Shown here piece by piece: positions 15,708-49,335 of a stretch of 64,000 nucleotides of DNA. Position numbers and translations under genes: made by a program. Each line of letters starts with the position of its first letter. Positions within the stretch are counted from its first letter, which is position 1. The DNA lies in contig NZ_CP036532.1 of the NCBI RefSeq assembly GCF_004331955.1, forward strand, positions 2,294,001 through 2,358,000, written 5' to 3'. The notes below the pieces were generated by a model, which was given only the letters and a program-made list of their open reading frames with translations, was not told the origin of the DNA and ran no database searches. The DNA is from Roseitalea porphyridii. GTDB taxonomy: Bacteria; Pseudomonadota; Alphaproteobacteria; Rhizobiales; Rhizobiaceae.

Positions 15708-15805
15708 CGTGAACTCTCCTGGCTTGGCATTGCGACTTTGCGCCGCTTGGCCGCCGCTCGCCGATTGACAGCGACGAGGCCGGCCCGCATGTGAGGGCCG
15801 ACGAC

Positions 15806-16765: not shown

Positions 16766-16770
16766 GGCCA

Positions 16771-31051: not shown

Positions 31052-31086
31052 GATCGTCTCCCGAGGCGGCCGCACCGCGCCTTCTT

Positions 31087-32140: not shown

Positions 32141-33238
32141 TCAGCGCTTCTTTTCCGGGAACAGCTTCAGCAGCCCCTCTTCGCTCGCCTCGGCGACGCC
32201 GCGCTCGGTGATCAGCCCGGTCACCAACCGTGCCGGCGTCACGTCGAAGGCCGGATTGGCGCCGGGCGTGCCATCGGGCGAAATCTGCACATGGGCCGTC
32301 GAGCCGTCGTCGAGCTTGCCGAACACACGCGTCACCTCGTCCTGGTTGCGCTCCTCGATCGGGATTTCGGCGAGCCCGTCATGGACGGTCCAGTCGATCG
32401 TGCTGGAGGGCAGCGCGACGTAGAACGGAATGTCGTTGTCGCGCGCGGCGAGCGCCTTCAGATAGGTGCCGATCTTGTTGCACACATCGCCCGACGCGGT
32501 CGTCCGGTCGGTGCCGACGATCACCACGTCGACATCGCCATGCTGCATCAGATGGCCGCCGGCATTGTCGACCACCAGATGATGGTCGATGCCGTGGCTG
32601 TTGAGCTCCCACGAGGTGAGCTGGGCGCCCTGATTGCGCGGCCGGGTCTCGTCGACCCAGACATGGACGTTCATGCCGTCCTCGACCGCCTGGTAGATCG
32701 GCGAAGTCGCCGTGCCCCAGTCGACGGTCGCGATCCAGCCCGCATTGCAATGGGTCAGAACGTTGACCGGCTCGCCCGGCCCTTTTTTCCGCGCGATCTC
32801 GCGCAGGATCTCCAGCCCGTGCAGACCGATCTGCCGGTTGGTCTCGACGTCCATGTCGCAGATTTCGGCCGCCCTGCGCATTGCCTCGTCGGCGCGCCGC
32901 TCGACCGGCGTGTTGCGCAGCATCGAACGCATGTCGTCGAGCGCCCAGCGCAGATTGATCGCCGTCGGCCGCGTCGCGTGGAGCACCTCCCAGGCATTGT
33001 CGAGCGCCGCGTCCGAGGCATCGCGCGCCATCTCGACGGCGACGCCGTAAGCGGCCGTCGCGCCGATAAGGGGCGCGCCGCGCACCCACATGTCGCGGAT
33101 GGCTGTGGCGAAATCGTCGAGCCCGTCGAGACTGACGATCCGGAACTCGTGCGGCAGCCAGCGCTGATCGATGATCATCACCTTGCCGTCATCCTCGTTC
33201 CGCCAGATCGAGCGGTAGTGCGTGTCGCCAACCTTCAT
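32141..33238 (-). CDS. mtnA: 5-Methylthioribose-1-phosphate isomerase family protein
   Basis: A 365-residue protein of the MtnA/eIF2B fold. N-terminal [16 protein letters not shown], catalytic Cys in [11 protein letters not shown] and catalytic Asp in [13 protein letters not shown] are conserved. It converts 5-methylthioribose 1-phosphate (or 5-deoxyribose 1-phosphate) to the ribulose 1-phosphate. It is the second gene after mtnK with ATGA overlap. The rest of the aerobic methionine salvage set (mtnB, mtnC/W/X, mtnD) is absent, so the product must leave by another route. Confidence 0.93.
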
Positions 33239-34503
33239 GCCGAAGCTCCCTTGTCCGCGCGGCGCGCCGCGGCGATCACCTGGTCGATGCCGGCGAAACC
33301 GGCACGGCCGAGCACCAGCGTGCGGCCCAGCCGGAGCGCCTTTTCCTCGAGCGGCGCGCGCTTCTCCGCATCCTCGATCGTGTCGAACTCGGCGATGTGC
33401 GCCAGCCCCAGAACGCGGCGGTGCATCTCGATTCCGGCGATCGCCAGCGCATCGATGAAGATCTCGCCGATCACCTCGCGCAGCGCGGCATCGGATGCGG
33501 GGTGGTGGCCCTGATCCTCATAAAGCGTCTTCGGATAGAGGATGCCGGTACGCTCGCTGTGCCACAGATTCTCAAACTCGGCGGCGAACACGGTCCACGT
33601 CTCGCCGATCACTTCCAGCAGCCAGTCCTGATAGGCGGCGCGCTCGGCCTCGTCGCCGATATGGCCGGGCATCGCCAGGAACGCCATCAGGTAGTTGCCC
33701 AGCAGCATGCCGATGTCGAACCCCATCGGTCCGTAGAAGGCGAACTCGGGGTCGATGATCTTCGCCTCATGGTCGGTGACCATGATCGAGCCGGTGTGCA
33801 GATCGCCATGGCACATCGTCTCGGCCTTGGCGGTGAAGGCGCGCTTGAAGTGCTGCGCGACGATCTTGAGCTGCTGGTCCTGACGCAGTTCGGCGACGAC
33901 GCCGTCAAGCTGCGGGCTTGTGTGCCGGTTCATCTCCGCGTCGAAATAGGGATCGGTGAAGACCAGGTTCTCGGTGATGTCGCACAGATCGACATTGTCC
34001 GAAAACAGCGCCACGTCCGCCTTCTTCTGCCGCGTCTGCATGCAAAGGTCGGACCCGCGAAACGCGGTGCGCGCGCAGAATTCGCCCAGCGTGCGGCCGA
34101 GCCCCTCCACGCGCCGCCCCGCCATCATCTGTTGGCGCAGGATGATGTGCGGGTTCAGATACTCCATGACGATCAGCGCCTGCGCCTCGTCATAATGATA
34201 GATTTCCGGCACCCGGCCCGGATCGCGCGCGGCCTGGCGCGTCAGCGCGTGATATTCGAAGAAGGCGCGGTTGAGCGGCAGGGGCCAGCTCTCGCCGACC
34301 AGCCGCACATAGGGCAGTGCCTGCTTGACGATCGCGGTGCCCGCAGTACCCTCGACGATGAAGACCAGATTGAGGTTGCCGTCGCCCACCTCGCGCACCG
34401 TCCAGGCCGTCGCGTCGGGCCCGATCCGGCGCGTCAGCGCGTCGATGCCGCCCAGCCTCTGGCCCAGCGTTTCCGGCGTCAGCGCTTCATATGTGTCGCT
34501 CAA
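33235..34503 (-). CDS. mtnK: 5-Methylthioribose kinase family protein
   Basis: A 422-residue kinase of the choline/aminoglycoside kinase fold. Motifs include [15 protein letters not shown] (nucleotide loop), [18 protein letters not shown] (catalytic loop) and [13 protein letters not shown] (metal Asp). It phosphorylates O1 of 5-methylthioribose, or 5-deoxyribose, in the cytoplasm. I place the start at the TTG at 34503, because GGGAGGAG lies four bases before it and the resulting [13 protein letters not shown] matches the family's start; upstream in-frame codons lack a site. Divergent from the Rbs-type transporter across a shared operator. Confidence 0.9.
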
Positions 34504-34558
34504 GCCGCTCCTCCCTCGTGCCAGCCATGCCATCGACCGTAGGAGCCATTTCAATCAG

Positions 34559-34584: not shown

Positions 34585-34619
34585 TGTGAGTTGGTTTGCT
34601 TCGGTTCGGGAGGAGTTCC

Positions 34620-36134
34620 ATGACCGATCTGGCATGCCGCATTTCTGGCATCGACAAGGCGTTCGGTGAAAACCGCGTTCTCCGCAAGCTCAGCCTCGAT
34701 CTGCCCGCCGGCACCGTCACCGCGCTGATGGGCGCCAACGGCGCGGGCAAGTCGACGCTCGTCAAGATTCTCAGCGGCGTGCATGCCCGCGACGCCGGCA
34801 CCATCACGCTGATGGGCGAGCCCTTCGCTCCCGCGACGCCATCCCGGGCGATTCGCGCCGGTGTCGTCACCGTCCACCAGAACATCAATGACGGCGTCAT
34901 TCCCGATCTCGACGTCGCCTCGAACCTTCTGATCGACCGTCTGGCCGAGGCCAATTACGGCTTCATGCTGCGCCGGCGGCGCATGCTGGAAGATGCGCGC
35001 GCCATCGCCGCGGGCATGGACCTTGCGATCGACGTGCGCACGCCGGTCGCCCAGCTCGGGGTCGCCGACCGCCAGCTCATCGCCATCGCCCGCGCCATGG
35101 CGCACGAGCCCAAGCTGCTGATCCTCGACGAACCCACCTCGTCGCTGTCGGCGGCCGAGGCCGAGCGGCTGTTCCGGCTGATCGAGAAGCTGCAGTCGCA
35201 GGGCGTTGCCGTGCTCTACATCTCGCACCGCATGTCCGACATCCGCCGCATCGCCGACCGCGTGGTCTCGATGCGCGACGGCGAGATTTCAGGCGTGTTC
35301 GAGGGTCCCGGCATCGATTACGAGGGCGCGGTCAACGCCATGCTCGGCCACCGCATGACCGAGGTCGACTTCACCGTGCCCGACGCCGGCGCACCCGTGG
35401 TCGCGCTGCGCGACGTCCAGCTCCGGCCCGACACGGCACCCTTCTCGCTCGATCTGCACGACAACGAGATCGTGGTCGTCACCGGCCTGCTCGGCTCGGG
35501 CAAGACCATGCTCGCCCAGGCCCTGTTCGGAATGGCCGCGCCACACGCCGGCACGATCACGCTCGACGGCAAGCCGTTCGCGCCAAAAAGCCCCGGCCAG
35601 GCGATCGCCCGCGGCGTCTTCATGTCGCCCAAGGACCGCGCCAGCAACGCGGTCGTCCACGACTTCAACCTGACCCGGAACATGACCGTGCCGTTCCTGT
35701 CGCGCTTCGGCCGGCTGTCCTTCGTCGACCGCGGCCGCGAGCGCGCGACGGCGCGCCAGATGATCGACGATCTGTCGATCGTCTGCCAGTCCGAGACCGA
35801 CGGGATCGGCACGCTTTCGGGCGGCAACCAGCAGAAGGTCATGCTGGCGCGCTGGCTGTCGCAGCCCAGCCGCCTCTTGATCCTCGACGAGCCGTTCCAG
35901 GGCGTCGACATCCGCGCCCGCCGCGACATCGGCCACAAGATCCGCGCCACCGCCGGCGACCGCGCCACGCTTGTCCTCGTCGCCGAACTGGACGAGGCCT
36001 TCGAGATCGCCGACCGCATCGTCGTCTTCCACGACCACACGGTGAGCGCGCAGTTCCGCAACGAGAACATCGACGTCAACGCCGTGCTCGCCGCCGTCAC
36101 CGGCGCGACGGGCACCGAACGGCAGACCGCATGA
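34620..36134 (+). CDS. Ribose-type ABC transporter ATP-binding protein (two ABC domains)
   Basis: A 504-residue RbsA-type double ATPase. Domain 1 has GANGAGKST, QLGVADRQLIAIARAM and LLILDEPTSSL; domain 2 has GLLGSGKTM, LSGGNQQKVMLARWL and LLILDEPFQGVD. It energises the adjacent permease. The ATG at 34620 follows GGGAGGAG. In operon with permease, binding protein and, after a terminator, a mutarotase; divergent from mtnK. The import substrate is inferred to be a free 5-modified ribose. Confidence 0.93.
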   Translation: MTDLACRISGIDKAFGENRVLRKLSLDLPAGTVTALMGANGAGKSTLVKILSGVHARDAGTITLMGEPFAPATPSRAIRAGVVTVHQNINDGVIPDLDVASNLLIDRLAEANYGFMLRRRRMLEDARAIAAGMDLAIDVRTPVAQLGVADRQLIAIARAMAHEPKLLILDEPTSSLSAAEAERLFRLIEKLQSQGVAVLYISHRMSDIRRIADRVVSMRDGEISGVFEGPGIDYEGAVNAMLGHRMTEVDFTVPDAGAPVVALRDVQLRPDTAPFSLDLHDNEIVVVTGLLGSGKTMLAQALFGMAAPHAGTITLDGKPFAPKSPGQAIARGVFMSPKDRASNAVVHDFNLTRNMTVPFLSRFGRLSFVDRGRERATARQMIDDLSIVCQSETDGIGTLSGGNQQKVMLARWLSQPSRLLILDEPFQGVDIRARRDIGHKIRATAGDRATLVLVAELDEAFEIADRIVVFHDHTVSAQFRNENIDVNAVLAAVTGATGTERQTA

Positions 36135-36135
36135 G

Positions 36136-37212
36136 ATGAGCTTGGACTCCACACCCGACCAGCAGGCCGAAAAAGCCGCCCCGATGAGCGAACACGATCG
36201 CCAGAGCCGCGGCGTGATGATCGACCTTGCGATCCGCTATGGCTTTCTGTGCCTGCTGCTCGGCATGATCGTCTTCTTCTCGATCTTCGCCGACGGTTTC
36301 GCAGGGCCACGCTCGGCCGTCTTCATCTTCCAGTCGGTCGCCATCACCGGCATTCTGGCGCTCGGCGTCACCTGCACGCTGGTCGTCGGCGGGTTCGATC
36401 TTTCGATCGGCTCGGTCGCGACATCGTCGATGATGCTGTCGGCCTACATGATGGTGATTCTCGAACAATCGGCCTTCGTCACCATTGTTGCCTGCCTGCT
36501 GATGGGTGCCTTCATCGGCCTCGTGAACGGGCTGATGATCGTCAAGACCAAGGTGCCCGACCTTCTGGCGACGCTCGGCATGATGTTCCTGCTGCTCGGC
36601 CTGCAGCGCATTCCGACCGAAGGCCGGTCGATCGCCACCGGCATGACGCTGCCCGACGGCTCGACCGCCGAGGGCACCTTCTCGTCCTTCTTCCTGTCGA
36701 TGGGCCGGCACCGGTTCGACTTCGTTCTGGACGATCTGATCCCGGTCTCGGTGGTCTTCCTGATCGTCATCGGCATCCTCGTCTGGGTGTTCCTCGAACT
36801 GACCCGGCACGGACGGCTGATGTACGCGATCGGCTCGAACGAACGCGCCGCCAGTCTGACCGGCACTAACGTGAACCGCTACAAGATCATGGCCTACATG
36901 ATCTCCGGCACGCTCGCCTCGGTGGGGGGCCTGCTGCTCGCCGCACGCCTCGGCCGTGGCGACATCGCCTCGGGCACCAACCTGCTGCTGGACGCGGTCG
37001 CCGCCGCGCTGATCGGCTTCGCCGTGCTCGGCGCGGCCAAGCCGAACGCGTTCGGCACCGCGATGGGCGCGCTGTTCGTCGGCATCCTGCTTCAGGGCCT
37101 GACGATGATGAACGCGCCCTACTACACCCAGGATTTCATCAAGGGCTTCGTCCTCGTGATCGCCCTTGTCTTCACCTTCTCGCTTTCCGCCCGAAGGGCC
37201 GGAAGCCACTGA
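36136..37212 (+). CDS. Ribose-type ABC transporter permease
   Basis: A 358-residue inner-membrane protein of the RbsC/AraH family with a hydrophilic N-terminal 35 residues and about nine helices. Typical motifs are GVTCTLVVGGFDLSIGS, GRLMYAIGSNERAASLTG and GRGDIASGTNLLLDAVAAALIG. It starts one base after the ATPase stop codon; an internal ATG at 36184 is possible. It forms the channel of the Rbs-type importer. Confidence 0.92.
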   Translation: MSLDSTPDQQAEKAAPMSEHDRQSRGVMIDLAIRYGFLCLLLGMIVFFSIFADGFAGPRSAVFIFQSVAITGILALGVTCTLVVGGFDLSIGSVATSSMMLSAYMMVILEQSAFVTIVACLLMGAFIGLVNGLMIVKTKVPDLLATLGMMFLLLGLQRIPTEGRSIATGMTLPDGSTAEGTFSSFFLSMGRHRFDFVLDDLIPVSVVFLIVIGILVWVFLELTRHGRLMYAIGSNERAASLTGTNVNRYKIMAYMISGTLASVGGLLLAARLGRGDIASGTNLLLDAVAAALIGFAVLGAAKPNAFGTAMGALFVGILLQGLTMMNAPYYTQDFIKGFVLVIALVFTFSLSARRAGSH

Positions 37213-37240: not shown

Positions 37241-38296
37241 ATGAAGATCCTACGCAGAACGGCACTGGCCATGGTTGCCAGCCTGGCCGCGTCCGCAACG
37301 CTGGCAACCGGCGGCGCGGCGCAGGCCCAGGACATGCCGGCACCTTTCGACAACCCCGAAGACGTCACCATCGCACTGGTGCGCTACCTGTCGACGGGCG
37401 ACTTCTTCCAGTCCTATCTGGCCGGCGTGGAAGCCCAGGCCGAGGCGCTCGGCGTCGACCTGCGCGTCTTCGACAGCCGCCAGGATGCGGCGCTTCAGGC
37501 CGACATGGTCGACCAGGCGATCGCGCTCGGCGTCGACGGCATCATCATCCAGCACGGGCTGACCGAGTCCATGCAGGAAGCGGCCCAGCGGGCCGTGGAC
37601 GCGGGCATCAAGGTCGTCGCCTTCGACGTCAATGTCGAGAACGATGCGATACCGCAGATCGAGCAGTCCGACCGTGACCTCGCCCGTCTGGTTCTGGAAC
37701 AGGCGATCAAGGACAATGGCGAGGAGTGGAAGGCCGGCTATGTCTACGTGCCCGGCATCGCTCCGCTCGACCGGCGCGACGAGACCTGGCGCGAGTTCAA
37801 GGAGCGCTATCCGGGCATCGACGAGGTCGCCCAGTTCGGCACCCTCGACAATCCGATCGCCAACTCCAACGCCAACCAGGCCCGCTCGGTGCTCCAGGCC
37901 AACCCGGACATCGAGGTCGTGTTCGCGCCCTATAACGAGTTCGCGCGCGGCGTGAAGATCGCCGTGGACGAGGCCGGCCTTTCGTCGGACATCGACATCT
38001 ATTCGGCCGACGTGTCGACCTCCGACATCGTCGCCATGCGTGAGCCGGACAGCGCCTGGGCGGCAACGGCTGCAACCAACCCGGCCGTGGTCGGCGAGGT
38101 CTCGGTGCGCGCGCTGGCGATCATGCTGGCCGGCGGCGATCCGGGCTCCAGCGTGATCATCCCGCCGACCCTGATCACCCAGGACATGCTCAACGAGATG
38201 GACATCTCGAACATGGAGGAACTGTCGTCGAACCTGGCCCAGTTCGCCCATGCCGATGTCGCCATGACCGACTGGATGCCTCTGCCGCCACGCTGA
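37241..38296 (+). CDS. Ribose-type ABC transporter substrate-binding protein
   Basis: A 351-residue periplasmic protein with a signal peptide (1-30, ending GGAAQAQ). It has the periplasmic-binding-protein class I fold of RbsB: VTIALVRYLSTGDFFQSYLAGVEA, DGIIIQHGLTESMQEAAQRAVDAGIKVVAFDV and VVFAPYNEFARGVKIAVDEAG. AGGAGG precedes the ATG. It delivers the sugar to the Rbs-type permease. Ligand not known, but mtnK, mtnA and a mutarotase as neighbours suggest 5-methylthioribose or 5-deoxyribose. Confidence 0.92.
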   Translation: MKILRRTALAMVASLAASATLATGGAAQAQDMPAPFDNPEDVTIALVRYLSTGDFFQSYLAGVEAQAEALGVDLRVFDSRQDAALQADMVDQAIALGVDGIIIQHGLTESMQEAAQRAVDAGIKVVAFDVNVENDAIPQIEQSDRDLARLVLEQAIKDNGEEWKAGYVYVPGIAPLDRRDETWREFKERYPGIDEVAQFGTLDNPIANSNANQARSVLQANPDIEVVFAPYNEFARGVKIAVDEAGLSSDIDIYSADVSTSDIVAMREPDSAWAATAATNPAVVGEVSVRALAIMLAGGDPGSSVIIPPTLITQDMLNEMDISNMEELSSNLAQFAHADVAMTDWMPLPPR

Positions 38297-38358: not shown

Positions 38359-38802
38359 ATGCTCAAGGGCATCGACGCGCGCGTGACGCCGGACCTGATG
38401 GACGCGCTGATGCGCATGGGCCATGGCGACGAGATCGTCATCGCCGACGCGAACTTTCCCGCCCACGCGACCGCCGCGCACTGCCATGTGCCCGAGCCCA
38501 TCCACCTGCCGGCAATGGACGCGGTCGAGGCGGCCGAACTGATCTGCACGCTGCTGCCGCTCGAGGCGTTCTTCGACTATTGCGCGCTGCGCATGCAGAT
38601 CGACGGCGCGCCCGACGAGATGGGCGAAGTCCATACGCAGGTCTTCGCCGTGCTCGAACGCCAGAAGCCCGACGGCGCCGTCCTGTCGAGCCTTGAGCGA
38701 CAGGACTTCTACGCGCAGGCGAAACAGGCCTTTGCCGTGGTCGCCACCAACGAGGCGCGCCCCTTCGGCTGCTTCATCCTGCGCAAGGGCGTGATTTTCT
38801 AG
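38359..38802 (+). CDS. FucU/RbsD-family sugar mutarotase
   Basis: A 147-residue cytoplasmic protein of the RbsD/FucU fold: LMDALMRMGHGDEIVIADANFPAH with the catalytic His near residue 22, and a C-terminal FGCFILRKGVIF. It interconverts sugar anomers so that imported sugar can be used by the kinase; MtnK-type kinases act on one anomer. GGGGAG precedes the ATG. Its last 4 bp overlap the convergent RuBisCO-like gene. Confidence 0.88.
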   Translation: MLKGIDARVTPDLMDALMRMGHGDEIVIADANFPAHATAAHCHVPEPIHLPAMDAVEAAELICTLLPLEAFFDYCALRMQIDGAPDEMGEVHTQVFAVLERQKPDGAVLSSLERQDFYAQAKQAFAVVATNEARPFGCFILRKGVIF

Positions 38803-39947
38803 GCGGTCTCGCGCTCGGCGCGGGCCGCATCGACCGCCCTGCGCATCGCCGTCACCGCCTCGCCGATCTTGTCGCCGGCCCGCAGCAGGCTGCCGCCGAG
38901 CAGATAGACGACATCGTCGCCATACATGCGCACCATGTCGGCGGCGCGCTCGACACTCATGCCGCCGCCCGGCGACGGCAGCATCGGCCTGCCATGCCCG
39001 TGCGGATCCCGGCAGGCCTCGGCGATCGACAGGCATTCCTCGGCCGAAAAGCCGAACCGCCCGCCGACATTGGGAAAGACCGAGATGTCCGAACCGGCGA
39101 GCCGCTGCAGCACGCCATACATCATCGCGTGGGTGAAGCCGGTGTCGGGCGACAGCACGAACGGGCCGGTGAAGCTCGGATGGGTCATGATCGGCAGGTC
39201 GAACGCGGGGTCACAGGCCAGCTGGTGGACGATCTCGAAGCCGAGCAGGCCCGGCATCAGCAGCACCCCGCCCGAGCCCGCCGTCTTGGCGAAGAAGGCA
39301 CGCTCGACGAGCTGGTCCGGCCGGCCGGTGATGTTGGCAAAATGCAGCGCCGAGGTGCCGAATTCGGCATTGGCGCGCGCCACCGCGGCGGCGACCTTTT
39401 CGGTGCGCTCCTCGAACGGGGACATCGGCTGGTCGGCGAGGCCGTGATCGTCCTTGATGATGTCGGCGCCGCCGGCAACGCAGCGCCAGGCGATCTCCGC
39501 AAGCTGGTCGGACGTCGAGCCCTGCGGCTTGATCACCGGCGAAATCAGCCCGCCTTCCGGCCGGCCGGCGCGCTGACGCACGCCCGCGATGCCGAAACGC
39601 GGACCGGCGAACCGTTCGGCGATCACCGGGCCGGGGTCGACGCCGACGACCTTGATGCCCTGCTGGATCGACGAATTGCCGAACATGACATTCAGGAGTT
39701 GCACCAGTTCGGTACCGGCGCTGTCGGGCGAATAGGAGATCGTCACGTCGAACACGCCCCGCCTCGCCATCACCGCGCGACCGACCTGTCCGACGATCTC
39801 GTCGGCGATGAAGCCTTCGGGCACGATGTCGCCGGGGATCTCGACGGTCTGCTCGAGCGCCACGTCATGGGCGCGGCGCATTGCCGCCGACGCGCTCTCG
39901 GCGAGGATCCGGTAGGTGACGGTGAACCGTTCGGCCTCCGCCGCCAT
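38799..39947 (-). CDS. RuBisCO-like protein (form IV)
   Basis: A 382-residue RuBisCO large-subunit fold protein, shorter than true RuBisCO. Aligning by eye: the first catalytic Lys is kept (VIKPQG, but the next Lys is Gln); the carbamate motif reads KDDH instead of KDDE; the active-site His is kept (IMTHPSF); the loop-6 Lys is missing (GGRFGFS). So it should not fix CO2. Form IV proteins enolise or isomerise sugar phosphates or decarboxylate keto-acid phosphates. In this context a 5-modified ribulose 1-phosphate is the likely substrate. The sequence looks closer to the 3-oxo-isoapionate-4-phosphate decarboxylase branch (OiaX/OiaT) than to the R. rubrum methylthioribulose isomerase. The start overlaps the transketolase stop (TGATG). 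Confidence 0.85.
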   Translation of the reverse strand: MAAEAERFTVTYRILAESASAAMRRAHDVALEQTVEIPGDIVPEGFIADEIVGQVGRAVMARRGVFDVTISYSPDSAGTELVQLLNVMFGNSSIQQGIKVVGVDPGPVIAERFAGPRFGIAGVRQRAGRPEGGLISPVIKPQGSTSDQLAEIAWRCVAGGADIIKDDHGLADQPMSPFEERTEKVAAAVARANAEFGTSALHFANITGRPDQLVERAFFAKTAGSGGVLLMPGLLGFEIVHQLACDPAFDLPIMTHPSFTGPFVLSPDTGFTHAMMYGVLQRLAGSDISVFPNVGGRFGFSAEECLSIAEACRDPHGHGRPMLPSPGGGMSVERAADMVRMYGDDVVYLLGGSLLRAGDKIGEAVTAMRRAVDAARAERETA

Positions 39948-40951
39948 CACAGCGCCTCGGCCTTGACGGCCGAATGCACCGCATCGACGCGCGCGGCCGA
40001 AAGCTGCTCCTCGGTGATGCCGGTCTTCTGCCCGATCAGCGTCTCGATGCCGGCAACGAGCGCCGAGGCGTCGAGCCCGTAATGCTTCATCAGATAGCCG
40101 CGCGAGCCGCCATGGGCATAGGTGTCCTTGAGGCCGAGCCGCACCAGCCGCTTGCCGACGCCATTGTCGGCCATGATCTCGGCGACCAGCGAGCCGACAC
40201 CGCCCTCGGTAACGTGGTTTTCGAGCACCACGACGCCCTTGGACACCGATGCGATGTGATCGAGCAGCGGTTTCTCGTCGAACGGCTTGATCGTGTTGAT
40301 GTGCAGATGACGGACCGAGACGCCGGCCTTTTCGAGCGCCTCGCGCGCCCGCAGCGCCTCTTCGGTGGCGATGCCCGAGGTGACGACCAGAACGTCCTCG
40401 CCGAGCGCCAGTTCGCGCATCTGGCCGACCACGATGGGCGTATCGAAAAGGCGCGGCACCGAGCCGCGCAGCACCCGGCAATAGACCGGCCCGTCGATCG
40501 AATCGGCGGCCTCGCAGATGCTCTCGACCTCGGTCGCATCGCCCGTCTCGAGCACCGTCATGTTGGGGATCGAGCGCATCACGGCGACATCTTCGATCGC
40601 CTGGTGGGTCATGCCGCCGGGCGTCGTCACGCCGGGCAGGAAGCCCATCAGCCGCACCTTGCGGCGCGGATAGGCGACCGATGCCATCAGCTGGTCGTAG
40701 GGCCGCCGGTACAGGAACACGCCGAACGAGTGCAGGAACGGCCGGAACCCGGCAAGCCCGAGCCCGCCGGCAAAGCTCATCATGTTCTGCTCGGCCATGC
40801 CCAGAGAGACGAACTGGTCCGGATGCCGGTCGCGGAACCCGTCGATCTCGCACGACGAGGTCAGATCGGCCGAAAGGCACAGAACGTCGGGATCGGCGGT
40901 GGCGAACTTTTCGAAGGCGGCCGCATAGGGCCGTGTGACCATCTCGACCAT
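39947..40951 (-). CDS. Transketolase C-terminal subunit (split enzyme)
   Basis: A 334-residue protein with the transketolase pyrimidine-binding and C-terminal domains: VSLGMAEQNMMSFAGGLGLAG (catalytic Glu), GVTTPGGMTHQAIEDVAVMRSIPNM and VVVLENHVTEGGVGSLVAEI. It needs the N-terminal subunit encoded upstream, with which it overlaps as TGATG. Split transketolases work in side pathways such as apulose 4-phosphate or sulfofructose cleavage. Here the co-operonic RuBisCO-like protein suggests a 1-modified xylulose 5-phosphate or related ketose phosphate. Confidence 0.9.
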   Translation of the reverse strand: MVEMVTRPYAAAFEKFATADPDVLCLSADLTSSCEIDGFRDRHPDQFVSLGMAEQNMMSFAGGLGLAGFRPFLHSFGVFLYRRPYDQLMASVAYPRRKVRLMGFLPGVTTPGGMTHQAIEDVAVMRSIPNMTVLETGDATEVESICEAADSIDGPVYCRVLRGSVPRLFDTPIVVGQMRELALGEDVLVVTSGIATEEALRAREALEKAGVSVRHLHINTIKPFDEKPLLDHIASVSKGVVVLENHVTEGGVGSLVAEIMADNGVGKRLVRLGLKDTYAHGGSRGYLMKHYGLDASALVAGIETLIGQKTGITEEQLSAARVDAVHSAVKAEAL

Positions 40952-41886
40952 CAGTGCGCTCCCTCGGCGATATCGACCGGCTCGACACCGAGCTCCTCGG
41001 CGATCGCCTTGTTCATCTCGTCGCGCTCCTCGGGCGTCTTGAATCGCACATAGTGAAGGCGCGGGAACCGGCGCTGCAGGAAGCTCATCCCGTGCGTCGG
41101 CGAGGACCGCGCCAGGATGATCAGCGGCCGGTCCTCGTGCGGCTCGGCCTTTGCCTGGCGCATCGCATCGAGATCGTGCGCGTCGATCTCGACGCAGACG
41201 GCGCCGAACGCGCGGAACTTTTCGGCGATGTCGCGCACTTCCATCACCGAACTCATCGCGCCGTCGCACTGCTGGTCGTTGACGTCCATCAGCGCCCACA
41301 GATTGTCGATGCGGTGATGGGCGGCCGCCTGCACCGCCTCCCAGGTCTGGCCCTCCTGGACCTCGCCGTCGGACATGAAGACGCACACCTGCCCCTCCTC
41401 GCCGCGCCGCTTGCGGCCGAAGGCGAGGCCCGCGCCGGTCGAAAGGCCGATGCCGAGCGTGCCGTTGTGCACTTCCATGCCCGGCGAGTGCTCGGCGCCG
41501 ATCATCTCGACCGACGATCCGTCCTTATTGAACATCTCGAGCCCTTCGGGCGCCATGCGGCCGGTCTCGATCAGCGTGGCATAGGCGACCAGCGCATAGT
41601 GGGCCGGCGCGATGAAGAGCCGGTCATAGCGCGGCTCGAACGGGCCGTTATAGCCCGCCCCCGTCACGTAGTCCGGATTGTCCGCCGACGGTACGCCGCC
41701 GAAGGGTCTTGGCACCGCCGGCAGGGTCGGCTCGCCCAGATTGAGCGCCTCGTTGTAGAGAAAAGCGAGCTGTTCGGCGGCCGAGCATGCCTGGCTGAGA
41801 TAGCCGCCATTGTTGCGCATGCAGTGCTCGAACACGCGCCGCCTGATGCCCAGCGCCACCTCTTCGGTCGACTTGCGGTTTTTCAC
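40951..41886 (-). CDS. Transketolase N-terminal subunit (split enzyme)
   Basis: A 311-residue thiamine diphosphate-binding half. It has GTLGIGLSTGAGLAFG and a ThDP/Mg motif with SDGEVQEGQTWEA ... LMDVNDQQ (GDG replaced by SDG). It begins with GTG at 41886 (MKNRKSTEEV). It is the first gene of an operon with the C-terminal subunit and the RuBisCO-like protein. A candidate SorC-type operator lies about 40 bp upstream. The catalytic role depends on the partner subunit. Confidence 0.9.
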   Translation of the reverse strand: MKNRKSTEEVALGIRRRVFEHCMRNNGGYLSQACSAAEQLAFLYNEALNLGEPTLPAVPRPFGGVPSADNPDYVTGAGYNGPFEPRYDRLFIAPAHYALVAYATLIETGRMAPEGLEMFNKDGSSVEMIGAEHSPGMEVHNGTLGIGLSTGAGLAFGRKRRGEEGQVCVFMSDGEVQEGQTWEAVQAAAHHRIDNLWALMDVNDQQCDGAMSSVMEVRDIAEKFRAFGAVCVEIDAHDLDAMRQAKAEPHEDRPLIILARSSPTHGMSFLQRRFPRLHYVRFKTPEERDEMNKAIAEELGVEPVDIAEGAH

Positions 41887-41924
41887 GTCCCAACCTCGTT
41901 TTGGAGCGGACTCTACGGCCCACT

Positions 41925-41936
41925 ATACAAATGTCA
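41925..41936. promoter_or_regulatory. Candidate SorC-type operator before the transketolase/RuBisCO-like operon
   Basis: ATACAAATGTCA matches TGACAAATGTCA at 31087 in 10 of 12 bases, with the GTCA arm intact. The related stretch GGCTTTTGTGAAAT follows at 41946-41959. It is the weakest of the four sites. Confidence 0.45.
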
Positions 41937-41976
41937 AGGCTATCTGGCTTTTGTGAAATCCGTACGAAACGAGTGA

Positions 41977-42753: not shown

Positions 42754-42784
42754 GGCGCTCTCCTGTTCTTGTTATGATGTCTTC

Positions 42785-43582: not shown

Positions 43583-43593
43583 GATCGTTTTCC

Positions 43594-44427
43594 TCAGTCC
43601 AGCGTGGGCAGCAATTGTTTCAGGACGGCGGCGATCCGGCCGCCGCAGATCTCGGCATGGGCGAGCACGTCCTCGATCGTGTCGGGCTTCTGGTCGGGTC
43701 CGCCGGTCGCCTTGTTGGTGATGCCCGAAAGGCCGAGCACCGGCAGACCGCAATGGGCCGCAGCGATCACCTCCATGACGGTCGACATGCCGACCGCATC
43801 GGCGCCGGTCGAGGCGAAGTAACGCCGTTCGGCGGCGGTCTCCAGCGATGGCCCCGCTATGCCCATATAGATGCCCCGGCGCAGCGCCACGCCCGCCTTG
43901 TCGGCCACCGCGAGCGTCGCTTCGCGCAACGCCGGATCATAGGCATGCAGAAGGTCCGGAAAGCGCGGGCCGATCGCCTCGTCGTTCGCCCCGGTCAGCG
44001 GGTTGTGTCCGGTGAAGTTCATGTGATCGTCGATCAGCATGACCTCGCCCGCGTCGAAGTACGGATTGAGCCCGCCCGCCGCATTGGTGACGATCAGCCG
44101 TTTCGCGCCCAGGCCCTTGAGCACGTAGACGGCGAGCGCGATATCGCGCGCCGGCCAGCCCTCGTACAGATGGAACCGGCCCTGCATGACGACCGCGTCC
44201 GTGCCGTGCAGCCGGCCGAACACGAAGCGCCCCGCATGGCCCGGCGCCGTCGAATGGGGAAATCCGTCGATCTCCGTATAGGGCACGTGCACCGGATCGG
44301 CGACTTCGGCCGCAAGCCCGCCGAGCCCGGTGCCGAGGATCAGCGCGGTGTCGACGGGACGGTCAGTCCTGGCGCGAATGGAGGCGAGCGCCGCGTCAAG
44401 GCGCGCGAGCTGGCTTTGCTGGGACAT
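43594..44427 (-). CDS. Purine nucleoside phosphorylase (6-oxopurine type)
   Basis: A 277-residue trimeric-type phosphorylase: LILGTGLGGLAAEV (phosphate loop), MQGRFHLYEGW, GPSLETAAERRYF and GMSTVMEVIAAAHCGL followed by SGITNKA. The Asn in ITNK marks inosine/guanosine-type PNP rather than methylthioadenosine phosphorylase. It would cleave 5'-modified inosine to hypoxanthine and the 5-modified ribose 1-phosphate, the MtnA substrate. That fits the deaminase gene 18 bp upstream. Use on normal inosine or guanosine cannot be excluded. Confidence 0.9.
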   Translation of the reverse strand: MSQQSQLARLDAALASIRARTDRPVDTALILGTGLGGLAAEVADPVHVPYTEIDGFPHSTAPGHAGRFVFGRLHGTDAVVMQGRFHLYEGWPARDIALAVYVLKGLGAKRLIVTNAAGGLNPYFDAGEVMLIDDHMNFTGHNPLTGANDEAIGPRFPDLLHAYDPALREATLAVADKAGVALRRGIYMGIAGPSLETAAERRYFASTGADAVGMSTVMEVIAAAHCGLPVLGLSGITNKATGGPDQKPDTIEDVLAHAEICGGRIAAVLKQLLPTLD

Positions 44428-44445: not shown

Positions 44446-45768
44446 TCAGGCGATGGAAGCGGCGATCTGCGGCGCCATGGCCTGCACTTCGGCGATGGGG
44501 CCCGCCAGATCGAGCCGGGTCAGCTGGCCGTCGCGCACCACCTGCTCGCCGGCGAGGAAGACATGGGCGATGTCGGACTTGTTGGTCGAATAGACCAGAT
44601 GCGTGACCGGCTCGAACAGGGGCACGGCATGGGCGCGCTGCACATCGACCAGCACCATGTCGGCGAATTTGCCGGGCTCGAGCGTGCCGATCCGGTCGCC
44701 CGCCTGCAGCGCCGTCGCGCCATCGCGCGTCGCCATGGCGAGCGCCTGCGCCGTGGTCACCGCCTCGGCATCCATTGTCGCGCCCTTGTGCAGCATGGCC
44801 GCCAGCCGCAGCGCCAGCCACATGTCCAGATCGTTGCCGCTGATCGCCCCGTCCGTGCCCAGCGTCACGCGCACGCCGGCGTCCAAAAGATCGGGCACGC
44901 GGGCGATGCCGGAGCCGAGTTTGAGGTTGGAGACCGGATTGTGAACGGCGCTCGCGCCCGTCCGGGCAAGGATGTCGATCTCCTCGTCGTCGAGATGGAC
45001 GCAATGGGCGAGCACCGTGCGCTCGTCGAGCAGGCCCAGATGATCGAGATGCCGGATCACCGAACGGCCGTAGCGGTTCTGGACGTCGGCCTGCTCGGCC
45101 CGCGTCTCGGCGGCATGGACGTGGTAGAGCGCGCCATGCGCCTCGGCGATGTCCTTGGCAAGGCGCAGATTGTCCGGCGAGACGGTGTAGGCGCCGTGCG
45201 GCATGGTCGCCACGAACACATCGTCCGCCTCGGCGAAGTCGGCAATGAAGCGTTCCGCGTCGTTCGGCCGGGTCTCGGCTGTCTTCTTGTCCATGCCCGG
45301 CGGGTCGAAGAAGATGCCGCCCGTTGCGACGCGAAGGCCGACCATGCGCGCCGCCTCGACGGTCTGCCGCGGATACCAGAACATGTCCATGACCGTGGTG
45401 ACGCCCGAAAGGAGCTGCTCGGCGAAACCGACAACCGAGCCCAGCCGGGTCGTTTCGGGATCGAGGATGGCCGCCTCGGCCTTCCACACGGTCTGCAGCC
45501 AGGCTTCGAGCGGCAAATTCTCGACCAGCCCCCGGAACAGGCTGTCGCCGGCATGGCAGTGCGTGTTGATCAGGCCCGGCATGAGAATGTGGCCGCTGCC
45601 GTCGACCACCCTGCCCGCGCGGTCCTTCATCGCTTCGAGCGCGTTTTGGTCGAGGACATGCGCGATGCGCCCGTTCGAGACCGTCACCCCGCCCTTTTCG
45701 ATGACGCGATTGTCCGCGTCGGCGGTGACGACGATGGCGTTCTCGATGATCAGGTCGAATTCGGACAT
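44446..45768 (-). CDS. Amidohydrolase, MTA/SAH/5'-deoxyadenosine deaminase-like
   Basis: A 440-residue ATZ/TRZ-type amidohydrolase. Metal ligands: NTHCHAGDSLFRG (His-x-His), VHAAET, AHCVHLD and GTDGAISGNDLDMW. The last motif and overall length match the 5'-methylthioadenosine/S-adenosylhomocysteine deaminases. It would convert a 5'-modified adenosine to the inosine form before phosphorolysis. It follows the nucleoside permease by 9 bp and precedes PNP. Other cyclic amidine substrates remain possible. Confidence 0.85.
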   Translation of the reverse strand: MSEFDLIIENAIVVTADADNRVIEKGGVTVSNGRIAHVLDQNALEAMKDRAGRVVDGSGHILMPGLINTHCHAGDSLFRGLVENLPLEAWLQTVWKAEAAILDPETTRLGSVVGFAEQLLSGVTTVMDMFWYPRQTVEAARMVGLRVATGGIFFDPPGMDKKTAETRPNDAERFIADFAEADDVFVATMPHGAYTVSPDNLRLAKDIAEAHGALYHVHAAETRAEQADVQNRYGRSVIRHLDHLGLLDERTVLAHCVHLDDEEIDILARTGASAVHNPVSNLKLGSGIARVPDLLDAGVRVTLGTDGAISGNDLDMWLALRLAAMLHKGATMDAEAVTTAQALAMATRDGATALQAGDRIGTLEPGKFADMVLVDVQRAHAVPLFEPVTHLVYSTNKSDIAHVFLAGEQVVRDGQLTRLDLAGPIAEVQAMAPQIAASIA

Positions 45769-45777
45769 GGCGTTTCC

Positions 45778-46683
45778 TCACGCGTTGCGGCGCATGCGCC
45801 ACCAGGACAGGACCACCAGCACGACGAGCGTCGCCACATAGGGCATCATGTCGGTGAACTGCTGCGGCCAGCCAAGGCCCTGCACCCGGAACGACAGGCT
45901 GTCAACGAAGCCGAACAGGCACACGATCGCCAGAAGCGGCAGCGGCCGCCCGCGCGTCAGAAGCACGGCGACGACGGCGATCCAGCCGCGCCCGGCACTC
46001 ATGTTTTCGACGAACAGGTTGACGTTGGCGATGGAAAGCTGCGCGCCGGCCAGCCCGCACAGCGCGCCGCACGCAACCAGCGCATAAAGCCGCACCCGTT
46101 CGGGGCTGACGCCACCGGCGGTCAGCGCGGCCGGGTTCTCGCCGGCGGCGCGGATGCGCAGGCCGAGCCGGTGCCGCAGGAAGAAAAGGTGCAGACCGAC
46201 GGCGATGGCGATCGCCAGATAGAACAGCGGCGACTGGCCCGACAGCACCGGACCGACAAGCGGCACATCCTCGATCAGCGGCAGCCGGACGCCGTCGAAG
46301 CCGACGATGGCCGGATCGCGGAACGCGCCGGCGACGCCGAAGATGGTCCGCAGCAGATAGGTCGTCAGGCCCGCCGCAAGCAGGTTGAGGGCGATCGACA
46401 CGACGATCGGATCGCCCGGCCGGCGCAGATGGAACTCGGCGAACAGAAGCCCCATCAGCACGCCCGCGAAGATCGCCGCCGTCGCGCCCATCAGCGCCGA
46501 GCCGAAGAAGAACGCGCCGCACACGGCCGCGAACGCGCCCACCAGGATGAACCCTTCGAGCGCGATGTTGAACACGCCCGCACGCTCGCAGATGGCCCCG
46601 CCGAGCGCGGCCAGCAGGATCGGCGTGATGAAGCGGGGCAGCGAGCCGGCGAAGGCCGGATCGAACAGGGCCTCAAGTCCCAT
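45778..46683 (-). CDS. Nucleoside-type ABC transporter permease (NupQ-like)
   Basis: A 301-residue BPD_transp_2 permease with eight or more helices: TPILLAALGGAICERAGVFNIALEGF, RRPGDPIVVSIALNLLAAGLTTYLL and GLRIRAAGENPAALTAGGVSPERVR. It overlaps the first permease by 11 bp. With that permease, the double ATPase and the BMP receptor it forms a nucleoside importer of the Nup/Yuf class. Confidence 0.92.
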   Translation of the reverse strand: MGLEALFDPAFAGSLPRFITPILLAALGGAICERAGVFNIALEGFILVGAFAAVCGAFFFGSALMGATAAIFAGVLMGLLFAEFHLRRPGDPIVVSIALNLLAAGLTTYLLRTIFGVAGAFRDPAIVGFDGVRLPLIEDVPLVGPVLSGQSPLFYLAIAIAVGLHLFFLRHRLGLRIRAAGENPAALTAGGVSPERVRLYALVACGALCGLAGAQLSIANVNLFVENMSAGRGWIAVVAVLLTRGRPLPLLAIVCLFGFVDSLSFRVQGLGWPQQFTDMMPYVATLVVLVVLSWWRMRRNA

Positions 46684-47746
46684 CGCCGCCCTCCGTTTCG
46701 GTGCGCGTGCCCTCGAAGGTGAGGTTCGAGAAGCGGCTTGCGACGAACAGGATGATCACCGCCTGCATGGTGATCGCCAGTTCCTTGGGCACGCCGGCGG
46801 TGCGCTCCATGCCGGCCGCGCCGGTCTGCAGCGCGGCGAAGAAGAAGCCCGACAGCGGCACAGCCCAGGGCACCATCTGCACCAGCAGCACCGCGACGAT
46901 GCCGGTCCAGGCGTAAAGCGGCTGCACCAGCATGCCGTCGGCGTAGCGATAGTGGATGCCGAACACGGCGATCGCGCCGACGAGCCCGGCGATCGCCCCG
47001 CTCATGGCGAGCGTCTGCAGCGCGAGCCACCTGACCGGCAGGCCCGAGGCCTGCGCGAACGGCATCGAATAGCCGGTCATGCGCGTGCGATAGCCGTGCA
47101 CGGTCATCGAGGTGTAGACGATGGCGATCACGGCCGTCGCGATGATGAACAAGATGCCGATATCGAGCCGCGTGCCCGGAAAGAAGGGCAGCCAGGACGC
47201 GTTGTCGATCAGATGCGTCTGCGGCAGGCCGGACTGGACGTCGCGGAACGGATGGCCGACCAAGTAGGAGGTGATGTAGCGCGCCGGATAGTTCAGCAGG
47301 AGCGAACCGACCAGCAGCGGCACGCCGACATAGAGGTAGAGCACGCCGGCCAGCATCGCCCACAGCGCGCCGGCGGCCATGCCCGCCGCGATGCCTGCGG
47401 CGGTCACGAGCAACGGCGGGCCGGGCATGGCGATGCCGACCAGCGCCGCGGTGAACCCGCCGATGACCAGTTGGCCCTCCCCGCCGATGTTGAACAGGCC
47501 GGCGCGGAACGACAGCATCACCGACAGCGCCATGCCGATGATCAGCGCCGACCGCGACAGCGTCGTCATCAGATAGGCATAGCGTCGGCCGCCGAAGGCG
47601 CCGTTCAGGAACCCTTCGAGCGCCCCCCCGAACGAGGCGCCGGCGATCAGCATCAGCACGAACAGGATGCCGAGGATCCAGGCCAGCACCCATATCCAGG
47701 GCGTCAGCTCGCGCATCGGCGACAGGCGGTCCGGCACGCCGCTCAT
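46673..47746 (-). CDS. Nucleoside-type ABC transporter permease (NupP-like)
   Basis: A 357-residue permease: LSFRAGLFNIGGEGQLVIGGFTAAL and the conserved MTGYSMPFAQASGLPVRWLALQTLAMSGAIAGLVGAI. The N-terminal 15 residues are hydrophilic. It overlaps the ATPase stop as ATGA. It is one half of the nucleoside-import channel. Confidence 0.92.
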   Translation of the reverse strand: MSGVPDRLSPMRELTPWIWVLAWILGILFVLMLIAGASFGGALEGFLNGAFGGRRYAYLMTTLSRSALIIGMALSVMLSFRAGLFNIGGEGQLVIGGFTAALVGIAMPGPPLLVTAAGIAAGMAAGALWAMLAGVLYLYVGVPLLVGSLLLNYPARYITSYLVGHPFRDVQSGLPQTHLIDNASWLPFFPGTRLDIGILFIIATAVIAIVYTSMTVHGYRTRMTGYSMPFAQASGLPVRWLALQTLAMSGAIAGLVGAIAVFGIHYRYADGMLVQPLYAWTGIVAVLLVQMVPWAVPLSGFFFAALQTGAAGMERTAGVPKELAITMQAVIILFVASRFSNLTFEGTRTETEGGDGT

Positions 47747-49269
47747 GCGGCCGCCGCCCCGGCCGATGCGTCCTCGCCGTGCGAGAGCATGAAGGCGCCG
47801 ATCCGTTCACGGTCGGCGTCGGCGCGGTCCATCTGCCCAGAGACGCGGCCGCCATACATGACGACGATCCGGTCCGACAGCGCCATGATCTCGTCCAGCT
47901 CGCTGGAGATCAGAAGGATCGCGTGCCCCGCATCGCGCATCTTCAGAAGTTCGCCGTGGATGAAATCGATCGCGCCGATATCGACGCCCCAGGTCGGGTT
48001 CTCGGCGATGATCAGCGGCGTACCGCGCGACAGTTCGCGCGCGACGACCAGCTTCTGCTTGTTGCCGCCGGACATGGTGCCGGCCCGGGCGCGCGGCCCG
48101 GCCACCTTGATGCGATAGCGCGCGATCAGATCGGCGGCAAACCGGTTCATCGCCTCGGTGACCGCGAACGGGCCGCGCCGGAAGCCGTCTTCGTCCATCC
48201 GTCCGATCGACGCGTTCTCGCTGACCCGGCCGGGAAGCGCCAGGCCGACGCGCTGGCGATCCTCGGGAATGTAGGCCATGCCCGCCGCGCGCCGCGCCGC
48301 GACGTCCAGCCCGGCAACGTCCCGGTCCATGATCCTTACCGCGCCGGCATCGGGTTTGCGCAGGCCGGTCAGGGCGTGGACGAGTTCGGCCTGCCCGTTG
48401 CCGCTGACGCCGGCGATGCCGAGGATTTCGCCCTCGCGCACATCGAGCGAAATCGGCCCGACCGCCCGCGCGCCGCGGCCGATGACGAGATCGCGGACCG
48501 AAAGCACAGCCCGTCCCGGCGCGCCGTCGGCGCGCGCCGGATTGTCGTGCAGCGCCCCGCCGACGATGTCGCGGGCGATCTGCTCCTTCGATGTCGAGCC
48601 GATCGGGCCGGAAAAGACCAGCTTGCCGGCCCGCATGACCGACACCGCGTCGGCCATCGCCATCACCTCGTCGAGCTTGTGGGTGATCAGCACGATCGCC
48701 TTGCCCGCCTCCCGGAAGCTACGCAGCACGGCGAACAGCCGATCCGTCTCGGCCGGCGTCAGCACGGCCGTCGGCTCATCGAGGATGAGCATGTCGGCCT
48801 GCAGGTACAGAAGCTTCAGGATCTCGACGATCTGCCGCTGACCGAGCGACAGCGTTGCGACGCGCGCATCAAGATCGATCTCGATGCCGTAATCCGCCGC
48901 GACTTCGGCCAGCGCCCGGCGCGCCTCACCGAAGCGGACGAAGCCGGCCGGCCCGGCCGGTTCGTTGCAAAGAACGACATTCTCGAGGACCGTCATGTCC
49001 TCCTGCAACATGAAATGCTGATGGACCATGCCGAGCCCGGCGCGGATCGCGTGCTGCGGGCTCTTCCAGCGCACGGCCTTGCCGTCGAGCGTGACCGAAC
49101 CCTCCTGCATCGGCACCAGGCCGAACAGCGCGTTCATCACCGTCGACTTGCCCGCGCCGTTCTCGCCGACGATCGCGTGCACGCTGCCCGAAGCGAACGA
49201 CAGCGACACGTGGTCGACCGCCGTCAGCGGACCGAAGCGGACCACGATATCGCGCATGTCCACCTGCAT
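47743..49269 (-). CDS. Nucleoside-type ABC transporter ATP-binding protein (NupO-like)
   Basis: A 508-residue double ABC protein. Domain 1 is canonical (GENGAGKSTVM, LSLGQRQIVEILKLL, LILDEPTAVL). Domain 2 is degenerate at Walker A (GVSGNGQAEL), as usual in this class, but keeps MSGGNKQKLVVARELS. MAYIPEDRQRVGLAL is typical of BMP-linked ATPases. A second ATG at 49257 has AGGTGG before it and is a possible start. Confidence 0.93.
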   Translation of the reverse strand: MQVDMRDIVVRFGPLTAVDHVSLSFASGSVHAIVGENGAGKSTVMNALFGLVPMQEGSVTLDGKAVRWKSPQHAIRAGLGMVHQHFMLQEDMTVLENVVLCNEPAGPAGFVRFGEARRALAEVAADYGIEIDLDARVATLSLGQRQIVEILKLLYLQADMLILDEPTAVLTPAETDRLFAVLRSFREAGKAIVLITHKLDEVMAMADAVSVMRAGKLVFSGPIGSTSKEQIARDIVGGALHDNPARADGAPGRAVLSVRDLVIGRGARAVGPISLDVREGEILGIAGVSGNGQAELVHALTGLRKPDAGAVRIMDRDVAGLDVAARRAAGMAYIPEDRQRVGLALPGRVSENASIGRMDEDGFRRGPFAVTEAMNRFAADLIARYRIKVAGPRARAGTMSGGNKQKLVVARELSRGTPLIIAENPTWGVDIGAIDFIHGELLKMRDAGHAILLISSELDEIMALSDRIVVMYGGRVSGQMDRADADRERIGAFMLSHGEDASAGAAAA

Positions 49270-49301
49270 GGGTGCGGACCTCGAAAGGGCTGGAAGGAGG
49301 G

Positions 49302-49327
49302 GCGCGCCGCCGGCTCCGGCGGCGCGC
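49302..49327 (-). other. Perfect GC-rich stem-loop between BMP receptor and ATPase genes
   Basis: GCGCGCCGCCGG and CCGGCGGCGCGC form a 12-bp perfect stem around two bases. It lies directly after the receptor gene on the transcribed minus strand and lacks a T-run. Probably an mRNA-stabilising or attenuating hairpin that raises the receptor:ATPase ratio. Confidence 0.55.
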
Positions 49328-49335
49328 GGAAGTGC

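Follow-up and report, generated by a model that had tools for sequence, protein, structure and literature searches.

The known RuBisCO-like proteins (RLPs) of the DeepYkr clade convert methylthioribulose 1-phosphate to 1-methylthioxylulose 5-phosphate (MTXu-5P), the substrate of a cupin. As of 2018, these proteins had a single known in vivo function, which was to feed the cupin that makes an isoprenoid precursor (PMC5893883, in the part available). Here, a different partner is described in Roseitalea porphyridii. The window is a stretch of 64,000 nucleotides (NCBI RefSeq assembly GCF_004331955.1, contig NZ_CP036532.1, positions 2,294,001 to 2,358,000), and positions are counted from its first letter. 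In it, an RLP gene is joined to the two genes of a split transketolase (TK), one for the C-terminal half (TKC) and one for the N-terminal half (TKN). All three lie on the minus strand, and both junctions are TGATG overlaps, as an initial annotation of the DNA had noted. The Pfam models over their cut-offs in this set are RuBisCO_large, PF00456 (Transketolase_N), PF02779 (Transket_pyr) and PF02780 (Transketolase_C), and the N, Pyr and C domains of a transketolase are all present across the two halves. We propose, with a probability of about 0.55, that the genes serve a variant of 5'-methylthioadenosine (MTA)/methylthioribose salvage in which the RLP would make MTXu-5P and the split TK, in the cupin's place, would cleave it.

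The pairing of TK and RLP is a real and conserved gene partnership, in which the split TK takes the place of the cupin. Among the best 80 of at least 470 relatives, named loci whose RLPs share 45-84% identity with that of the window, TKC is encoded directly upstream of the RLP in 77 (69 by a script rule and eight on inspection). They include two records from Thiotrichaceae, one from Myxococcota and one from Chloroflexota. A TKN was seen at 71 of these 80 loci; at L079, L100, L106 and L115, the contig end was reached inside TKC. No cupin was found in the 80 loci. The three loci without a TK near the RLP (L039-L041) are the window's genus-mates. Each of their genomes has an 84% TKC elsewhere, and G003, the sole genus member without the RLP, is also without this TKC. 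The TKC-RLP junctions, 79 with L036 and L037 (repeats of two of the 77, as L036/L071 and L037/L104 are the same contigs), are of the TGATG type in 45 cases and of the ATGA type in 15. Their spacing is within 30 bases in 78, a figure that favours short spacings since, among in-frame start codons, the script chose the one closest to the stop codon of TKC. In the draft genome G262, MtnA and TKN even form one open reading frame of 656 aa (L134:7149-9119, minus strand), followed by TKC and the RLP.

Choosing the best 80 makes the adjacency count lean to close kin, a bias that two random genome samples answer. About 1.5 kb was read on each side of every RLP. The class sample (289 genomes) gave 12 non-self RLP matches at E 1e-25, one beside a TK (G262) and nine beside a cupin. 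As for the remainder, G287 ends 33 bases before the contig end, has no TK upstream and falls in the cupin group of the trees; G096 is another RLP class. The phylum sample (398 genomes, at most four candidates scored per genome) gave five at E 1e-40, four with a TK and one with a cupin. TK and cupin were never found together beside one RLP in either sample (5 TK and 10 cupin cases, about 1.5 kb per side). One cupin case, G291, has a 41% TKC relative on another contig. The reverse search of the phylum sample found five non-self TKC at 57% or more, four of them beside an RLP and one (G657) in a genome without any RuBisCO-family gene. Five further TKC-like matches at 38-43% are other split or fused TKs. 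The 77 of 80 loci and the recurrence in random genomes rule out chance adjacency.

The metal-site stretch of the window RLP reads KDDH. It retains Lys165 and Asp167 and has His168 as third metal ligand, which bears out the initial annotation on the carbamate Lys and Asp and on His in place of the metal Glu. It was also right about the missing loop-6 Lys, since Arg297 occupies a column with Lys in five other RLPs (L010-L014), which we take to be the loop-6 position. In the alignment, Lys165, Asp167 and His168 (K.DH) are invariant in 85/85 TK-type rows (the 80 named loci, L035, L036, L037, L134 and the window, three without an adjacent TK and some duplicates) and in 11/11 cupin-type rows (ten RLPs beside a cupin and 3QFW). 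Glu stands at the third ligand in two MtnW, one photo-type and the five other RLPs L010-L014. Residue 166 is variable, with KDDH in 28 and KEDH in 52 of the 80 loci. Being common to both groups, K.DH marks the clade and not this protein, and KDDH as a peculiarity of the window RLP is ruled out. The pattern was derived in this analysis and is not a published definition of DeepYkr RLPs.

The closest solved structure is 3QFW of R. palustris (sequence E 2.6e-68, Foldseek E 1.6e-37), which would be RLP1 of that species, 2QYG being titled rlp2. The predicted model (pLDDT 92.5) has a RuBisCO-like fold. Its VIA-align Z is 44.8 against 3QFW and 44.6 against MtnW 2ZVI, a tie (within 1) that does not separate the two. 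In a 60-row tree, TK-type and cupin-type RLPs form one group (100/100) apart from MtnW and 4NAS, and in a 122-row tree the window RLP stands with cupin-linked RLPs (SH-aLRT 99), far from L016 and its kin. R. rubrum Rru_A1998 is represented in this grouping by stand-ins, the ten cupin-adjacent RLPs and 3QFW, the latter carrying the cupin assignment as a label and not from its gene neighbourhood. TK and cupin neighbours part on a single branch of the RLP tree, with one change in 96% of 200 bootstrap trees. One cupin-linked RLP, L145 of G604, is 43% identical to the window RLP (36-41% for the other cupin-linked ones) and sits on a long branch; it could be an intermediate.

Profile searches placed the window RLP below the curated cut-offs of OiaX, the 3-oxo-isoapionate-4-phosphate decarboxylase (71.8 vs 700 bits), and of MtnW (179.5 vs 409 and 133.3 vs 513.6 bits). 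L016, a cut piece of 316 aa, reached 640.8 bits with OiaX. Membership of MtnW is ruled out by these scores, and that of the apionate/OiaX branch by score and tree position. The resemblance to the apionate branch over the R. rubrum isomerase seen by the initial annotation is not borne out, and its idea of a branched keto-acid phosphate decarboxylated to feed the transketolase is left unsupported. By its sequence, the window RLP is assigned to the DeepYkr clade, with methylthioribulose 1-phosphate 1,3-isomerase as the known activity. The "new use of the fold" survives in part. The RLP groups firmly with a known isomerase clade, half of what the initial annotation had named as speaking against it, and its step is therefore probably a known one. 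The clade is already known, and the new part is the transketolase.

RLP-type TKN and TKC were aligned with human TK, the split TK of Carboxydothermus hydrogenoformans and two other proteins of the TK family encoded in the genome; from the alignment rather than a family scan, L148 would be dxs and L149 tkt. In RLP-type TKN, the His residues of SGHP and GHP are missing, but that of SKGH/PAH is retained. TKC lacks the H and D of H.G...GEDG and keeps the final HQ. Human and C. hydrogenoformans TK carry both GHP and H.G...GEDG. GHP is absent from all 77 RLP-linked TKN (70 of the 80 loci, L035-L037, L131-L134), and FLPG[IV].TPGG.THQ is present in all 83 RLP-linked TKC (76 of the 80 loci and the same seven others). 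The GHP motif holds what we take to be the donor-site His, equivalent to yeast TK His103. A hydrophobic residue in place of this ligand of the donor C1 hydroxyl would suit a methylthio carbon, which is suggestive only. The SDGE stretch of TKN, presumably the cofactor-binding motif, and the Glu of GMAEQN in TKC, presumably catalytic, are both present.

The features of the cluster are collected in the table below.

Features of the RLP/transketolase cluster in the R. porphyridii window
Feature	Position	Strand	Remark
RLP, DeepYkr clade, KDDH motif, 382 aa	38799..39947	-	Pfam RuBisCO_large over cut-off
Split TK C-half (TKC), Pyr and C domains, 334 aa	39947..40951	-	TGATG overlap with RLP gene
Split TK N-half (TKN), thiamine diphosphate (ThDP)-binding, 311 aa, GTG start	40951..41886	-	TGATG overlap with TKC
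Sigma-70-like promoter match upstream of TKN, 10/12	41910..41937	-	Consensus match only
FucU/RbsD-type sugar mutarotase, convergent with RLP gene	38359..38802	+	
Sugar ABC transporter substrate-binding protein (Peripla_BP_4)	37241..38296	+	
Sugar ABC transporter permease	36136..37212	+	
Sugar ABC transporter ATPase, start codon ambiguous	34596..36134	+	
MtnK, methylthioribose kinase	33235..34554	-	TIGR01767, 488.4 bits vs cut-off 275
MtnA-type isomerase	32141..33238	-	PF01008; name MtnA from PF01008 and position beside mtnK
SorC-type regulator	31140..32132	+	PF04198 sugar-binding domain
Class II aldolase/short-chain dehydrogenase (SDR) fusion	28979..31075	-	NF006192, 864.6 bits vs cut-off 639
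Purine nucleoside phosphorylase (PNP), likely feeder	43594..44427	-	
Amidohydrolase-family deaminase, likely feeder	44446..45768	-	Best model PRK09045, under its cut-off
ABC transporter (Bmp-type binding protein, two permeases, ATPase), likely nucleoside uptake	45778..50349	-	

The initial annotation had the RLP sitting beside mtnK and mtnA. They do share the region, but at about 4-7 kb, with the sugar ABC transporter and the FucU-type gene between them on the other strand. MtnK, MtnA and a class II aldolase are encoded together in the window, and the aldolase/SDR fusion next to mtnA is likely a fused form of the aldolase of the dihydroxyacetone phosphate (DHAP) shunt. This company recurs. Where 9 kb or more was available on both sides of the RLP start (52 loci), mtnA was counted in 46, mtnK in 42, an rbs-type ABC transporter in 41, SorC in 42, the aldolase/SDR in 32 and fucU in 11, with identity cut-offs chosen for this analysis. 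In the genus-mates L039 and L041, the genes immediately before the RLP are those of a deaminase and a PNP. Two SDR genes lie upstream of the TK operon (41977-43753) and are found beside the cluster in few relatives. In L083 (8308-10647) and L099 (11147-13489), the RLP gene is directly followed by that of a 780-aa ThDP protein resembling the homodimeric pyruvate dehydrogenase E1, near mtnA and deaminase genes (in L083, PNP too); no E1-like gene was found in L091. L083 also encodes an AMP-binding protein of the acyl-CoA-synthetase type downstream of mtnA (15498-17219), which might act on acetate.

The gene content of the genus was searched for other salvage enzymes. The cupin MTXu-5P methylsulfurylase was found in 0/5 genomes at E 0.001, in a search that had no positive genome; the same query used by tblastn found ten other cupins at 51-67%. 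The ARD dioxygenase of the classical salvage was found in 0/5 genomes. MetY is over its cut-off in 5/5, so that freed methanethiol could be used. The MetY-like proteins near the cluster itself are weak matches (29-33% in 3 loci).

Gene order, conservation, clade, exchange of partners, fusion and missing residues are established by the sequences; which sugar is used in R. porphyridii, each reaction of the pathway and, most of all, what becomes of the two-carbon unit are what we infer. Methylthioribose would be imported and phosphorylated via the ABC transporter, FucU and MtnK; alternatively, methylthioribose 1-phosphate derived from nucleosides could enter via the deaminase and the phosphorylase. 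MtnA would isomerise methylthioribose 1-phosphate to 5-methylthioribulose 1-phosphate. By analogy with the DeepYkr clade, the RLP would then shift the carbonyl by enolisation on a Mg-carbamate site, giving MTXu-5P. ThDP would add to C2 of this compound, the C2-C3 bond would break and glyceraldehyde 3-phosphate would leave, the methylthio-C2 unit staying on ThDP. The resulting carbanion, with its beta methylthio group, could undergo beta-elimination, as phosphoketolase loses water, to methanethiol and enol-acetyl-ThDP, the latter ending as acetate or acetyl phosphate. MetY could rebuild methionine from the methanethiol. Cleavage of MTXu-5P by the TK would probably release methanethiol. Tentatively, and with less confidence than in the cleavage as such, the split TK may thus be a ThDP-dependent carbon-sulfur lyase that turns MTXu-5P into glyceraldehyde 3-phosphate, methanethiol and acetate or acetyl phosphate. 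The initial annotation had suggested a 1-modified xylulose 5-phosphate cleaved by the transketolase to glyceraldehyde 3-phosphate and a two-carbon unit. This fits the clade, the company of genes in the cluster, the replacement of the cupin by a TK, the fusion of MtnA to TKN and the missing GHP His, and its chemistry would be as outlined here.

The TK is also found in other company. In 6/90 stretches (L067, L077, L082, L085, L090, L131) and in L160, a molybdopterin S/N-oxide reductase of the BisC family is encoded no more than three genes from the TK. In L082, L085 and L090, which form one subclade, its gene adjoins the RLP, and in L077 and L131 it adjoins TKN; the distance to the TK is one or two genes in L160 and L067. 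L077, L082 and L085 share the sugar transporter of L160, the binding proteins being 78-86% identical. In G657 (L160, G657:C3:350500-370400, with L166) and G001 (L131 with L165, G001:C33), the TK and BisC are accompanied by a XylB-like FGGY kinase, a Zn dehydrogenase, an L-ribulose-5-P-4-epimerase-like protein and SorC. All models matched in this set stayed under their cut-offs (275 and 257 bits vs 380 for the kinase), and the dehydrogenase and epimerase-like copies of G001 were matched by similarity only. The simplest joint reading would be that the TK splits a 1-substituted pentulose 5-phosphate which can be reached in two ways, through kinase and epimerase or through MtnA and RLP. The substituent of this compound would contain sulfur and may arrive oxidised. 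Nothing on sulfoxide sugars for methylthioribose was found among the matches listed (15 of 23) in the open-licence literature.

Several observations weigh against a TK acting on MTXu-5P made by the RLP. The window RLP is only 36-43% identical to cupin-linked RLPs and keeps a loop (269-274) absent in all 11 cupin-type rows, so that its product could differ. Support for the branch that splits TK-type from cupin-type RLPs is moderate (87/42), and the long rows L145 and L134 are near it. Three other split TKs (L135-L137, 41-43% to TKC, with no RLP in the stretches read) are also without GHP and GED; the losses are therefore not specific to a methylthio substrate. The residue matching yeast TK Asp477, which we take to contact a hydroxyl on the aldehyde half, is missing in RLP-linked TK, which does not obviously suit a xylulose-5-phosphate-like substrate. 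No TKN was found upstream in the Thiotrichaceae loci L108 (924 bases read) and L113 (about 9 kb read), both with TKC and RLP. G657, listed as 100% complete, has TKN at 78% and TKC at 84% with neither a RuBisCO-family gene nor MtnA. The TK thus does not strictly need the RLP, and an obligatory linkage of the two is ruled out. Lastly, the aldolase/SDR of the cluster could consume the same ketose 1-phosphate.

This last point also bears on the alternatives. The route to MTXu-5P could be as proposed with the TK a true ketol transferase or lyase that keeps the methylthio-C2 unit intact, passing it to an acceptor aldehyde or releasing it as 2-(methylthio)acetaldehyde with no C-S cleavage. Both halves consist of TK-family domains, no phosphoketolase model was listed for them, and the SDGE stretch and the GMAEQN Glu, whose roles we assume, are present. 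However, the aldolase/SDR would by itself produce DHAP and methylthioacetaldehyde, and little would be gained from another route to the same aldehyde, which weakly favours C-S cleavage by the TK. The replaced cupin, moreover, frees the methylthio group (PMC5893883, in the part available). We regard this alternative as unlikely, yet as the most serious of those considered. A distinctly smaller chance is given to 5-deoxyribose as the substrate, with the RLP making 1-deoxyxylulose 5-phosphate and the TK splitting it in a detour parallel to the DHAP shunt. According to the accessible part of PMC6079011, DrdK accepts both sugars, and methylthioribose was also processed by DrdK, DrdI and DrdA acting in combination; the cluster also contains an aldolase. 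But this aldolase alone would give DHAP and acetaldehyde, and the BisC-family reductase within three genes of the TK in seven loci points to a sulfur substrate. Ordinary ribose 1-phosphate catabolism via xylulose 5-phosphate was set aside because the related DrdK is inactive on ribose, again in the available part of PMC6079011. An arsenosugar was another substrate considered.

The gene sets of G657 and G001, in which TK, BisC, XylB-like kinase, Zn dehydrogenase, epimerase-like protein and SorC stand together, would also suit a TK serving a different 1-substituted pentulose phosphate, supplied by the dehydrogenase, the xylulokinase-like kinase and the epimerase, with the RLP as a second entry point. 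The RLP is, however, the fixed neighbour in 77/80 loci and the kinase/epimerase set occurs in two genomes, which makes this about as improbable as 5-deoxyribose. It would also be compatible with cleavage of MTXu-5P, as both give a pentulose 5-phosphate. Least credible by far is an apionate-type chemistry of decarboxylase and transketolase. Apiose pathways do use a transketolase, but the OiaX score, the position in the RLP tree and the company of mtnK and mtnA all speak against it here.

No report of an RLP-transketolase pairing was found in the parts of the open-licence literature seen, from which subscription journals are mostly missing, and no paper on a "split transketolase" was found there under that name. 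A promiscuous TK that uses 5-deoxyribose as acceptor, a different reaction, is described in the available part of PMC8102628. If the proposed cleavage of MTXu-5P by the TK is true, methylthioxylulose phosphate would have a further fate, reached by a widely spread exchange of the cupin for a TK with an altered active site. Transketolase chemistry would be used on a thio-sugar and would provide an oxygen-independent source of methanethiol. If the TK is a C-S lyase, this would amount to an oxygen-independent catabolism of methylthioribose in which no carbon or sulfur is lost and which sulfoxide forms would enter in parallel via the BisC-type reductase.

Four known systems can be compared with the locus. 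OiaX and the window RLP share the RuBisCO superfamily, but the window RLP is far under the family cut-off, and the OiaX-side RLPs L010-L014 have Glu for His168. The split-chain transketolase of C. hydrogenoformans (6YAJ/6YAK) is the best PDB match of both window halves. In contrast to it, the window TKN lacks the GHP and SGHP His and has an extra insert, and TKC lacks the H and D of H.G...GEDG and has a C-terminal extension. With the DHAP shunt (MtnK or MtnP, MtnA and Ald2), the cluster has MtnK, MtnA and a class II aldolase in common, the last here fused to an SDR. The RLP and the TK are extra in the window, and by term counts the word "transketolase" is absent from the available parts of PMC10986504 and PMC12632272. 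The MTA-isoprenoid shunt of R. rubrum and R. palustris has the same RLP clade, the K.DH motif and MtnA as the upstream step. Unlike this shunt, the window has a split TK instead of a cupin, and where the shunt yields 1-deoxyxylulose 5-phosphate, glyceraldehyde 3-phosphate and a two-carbon unit are expected here.

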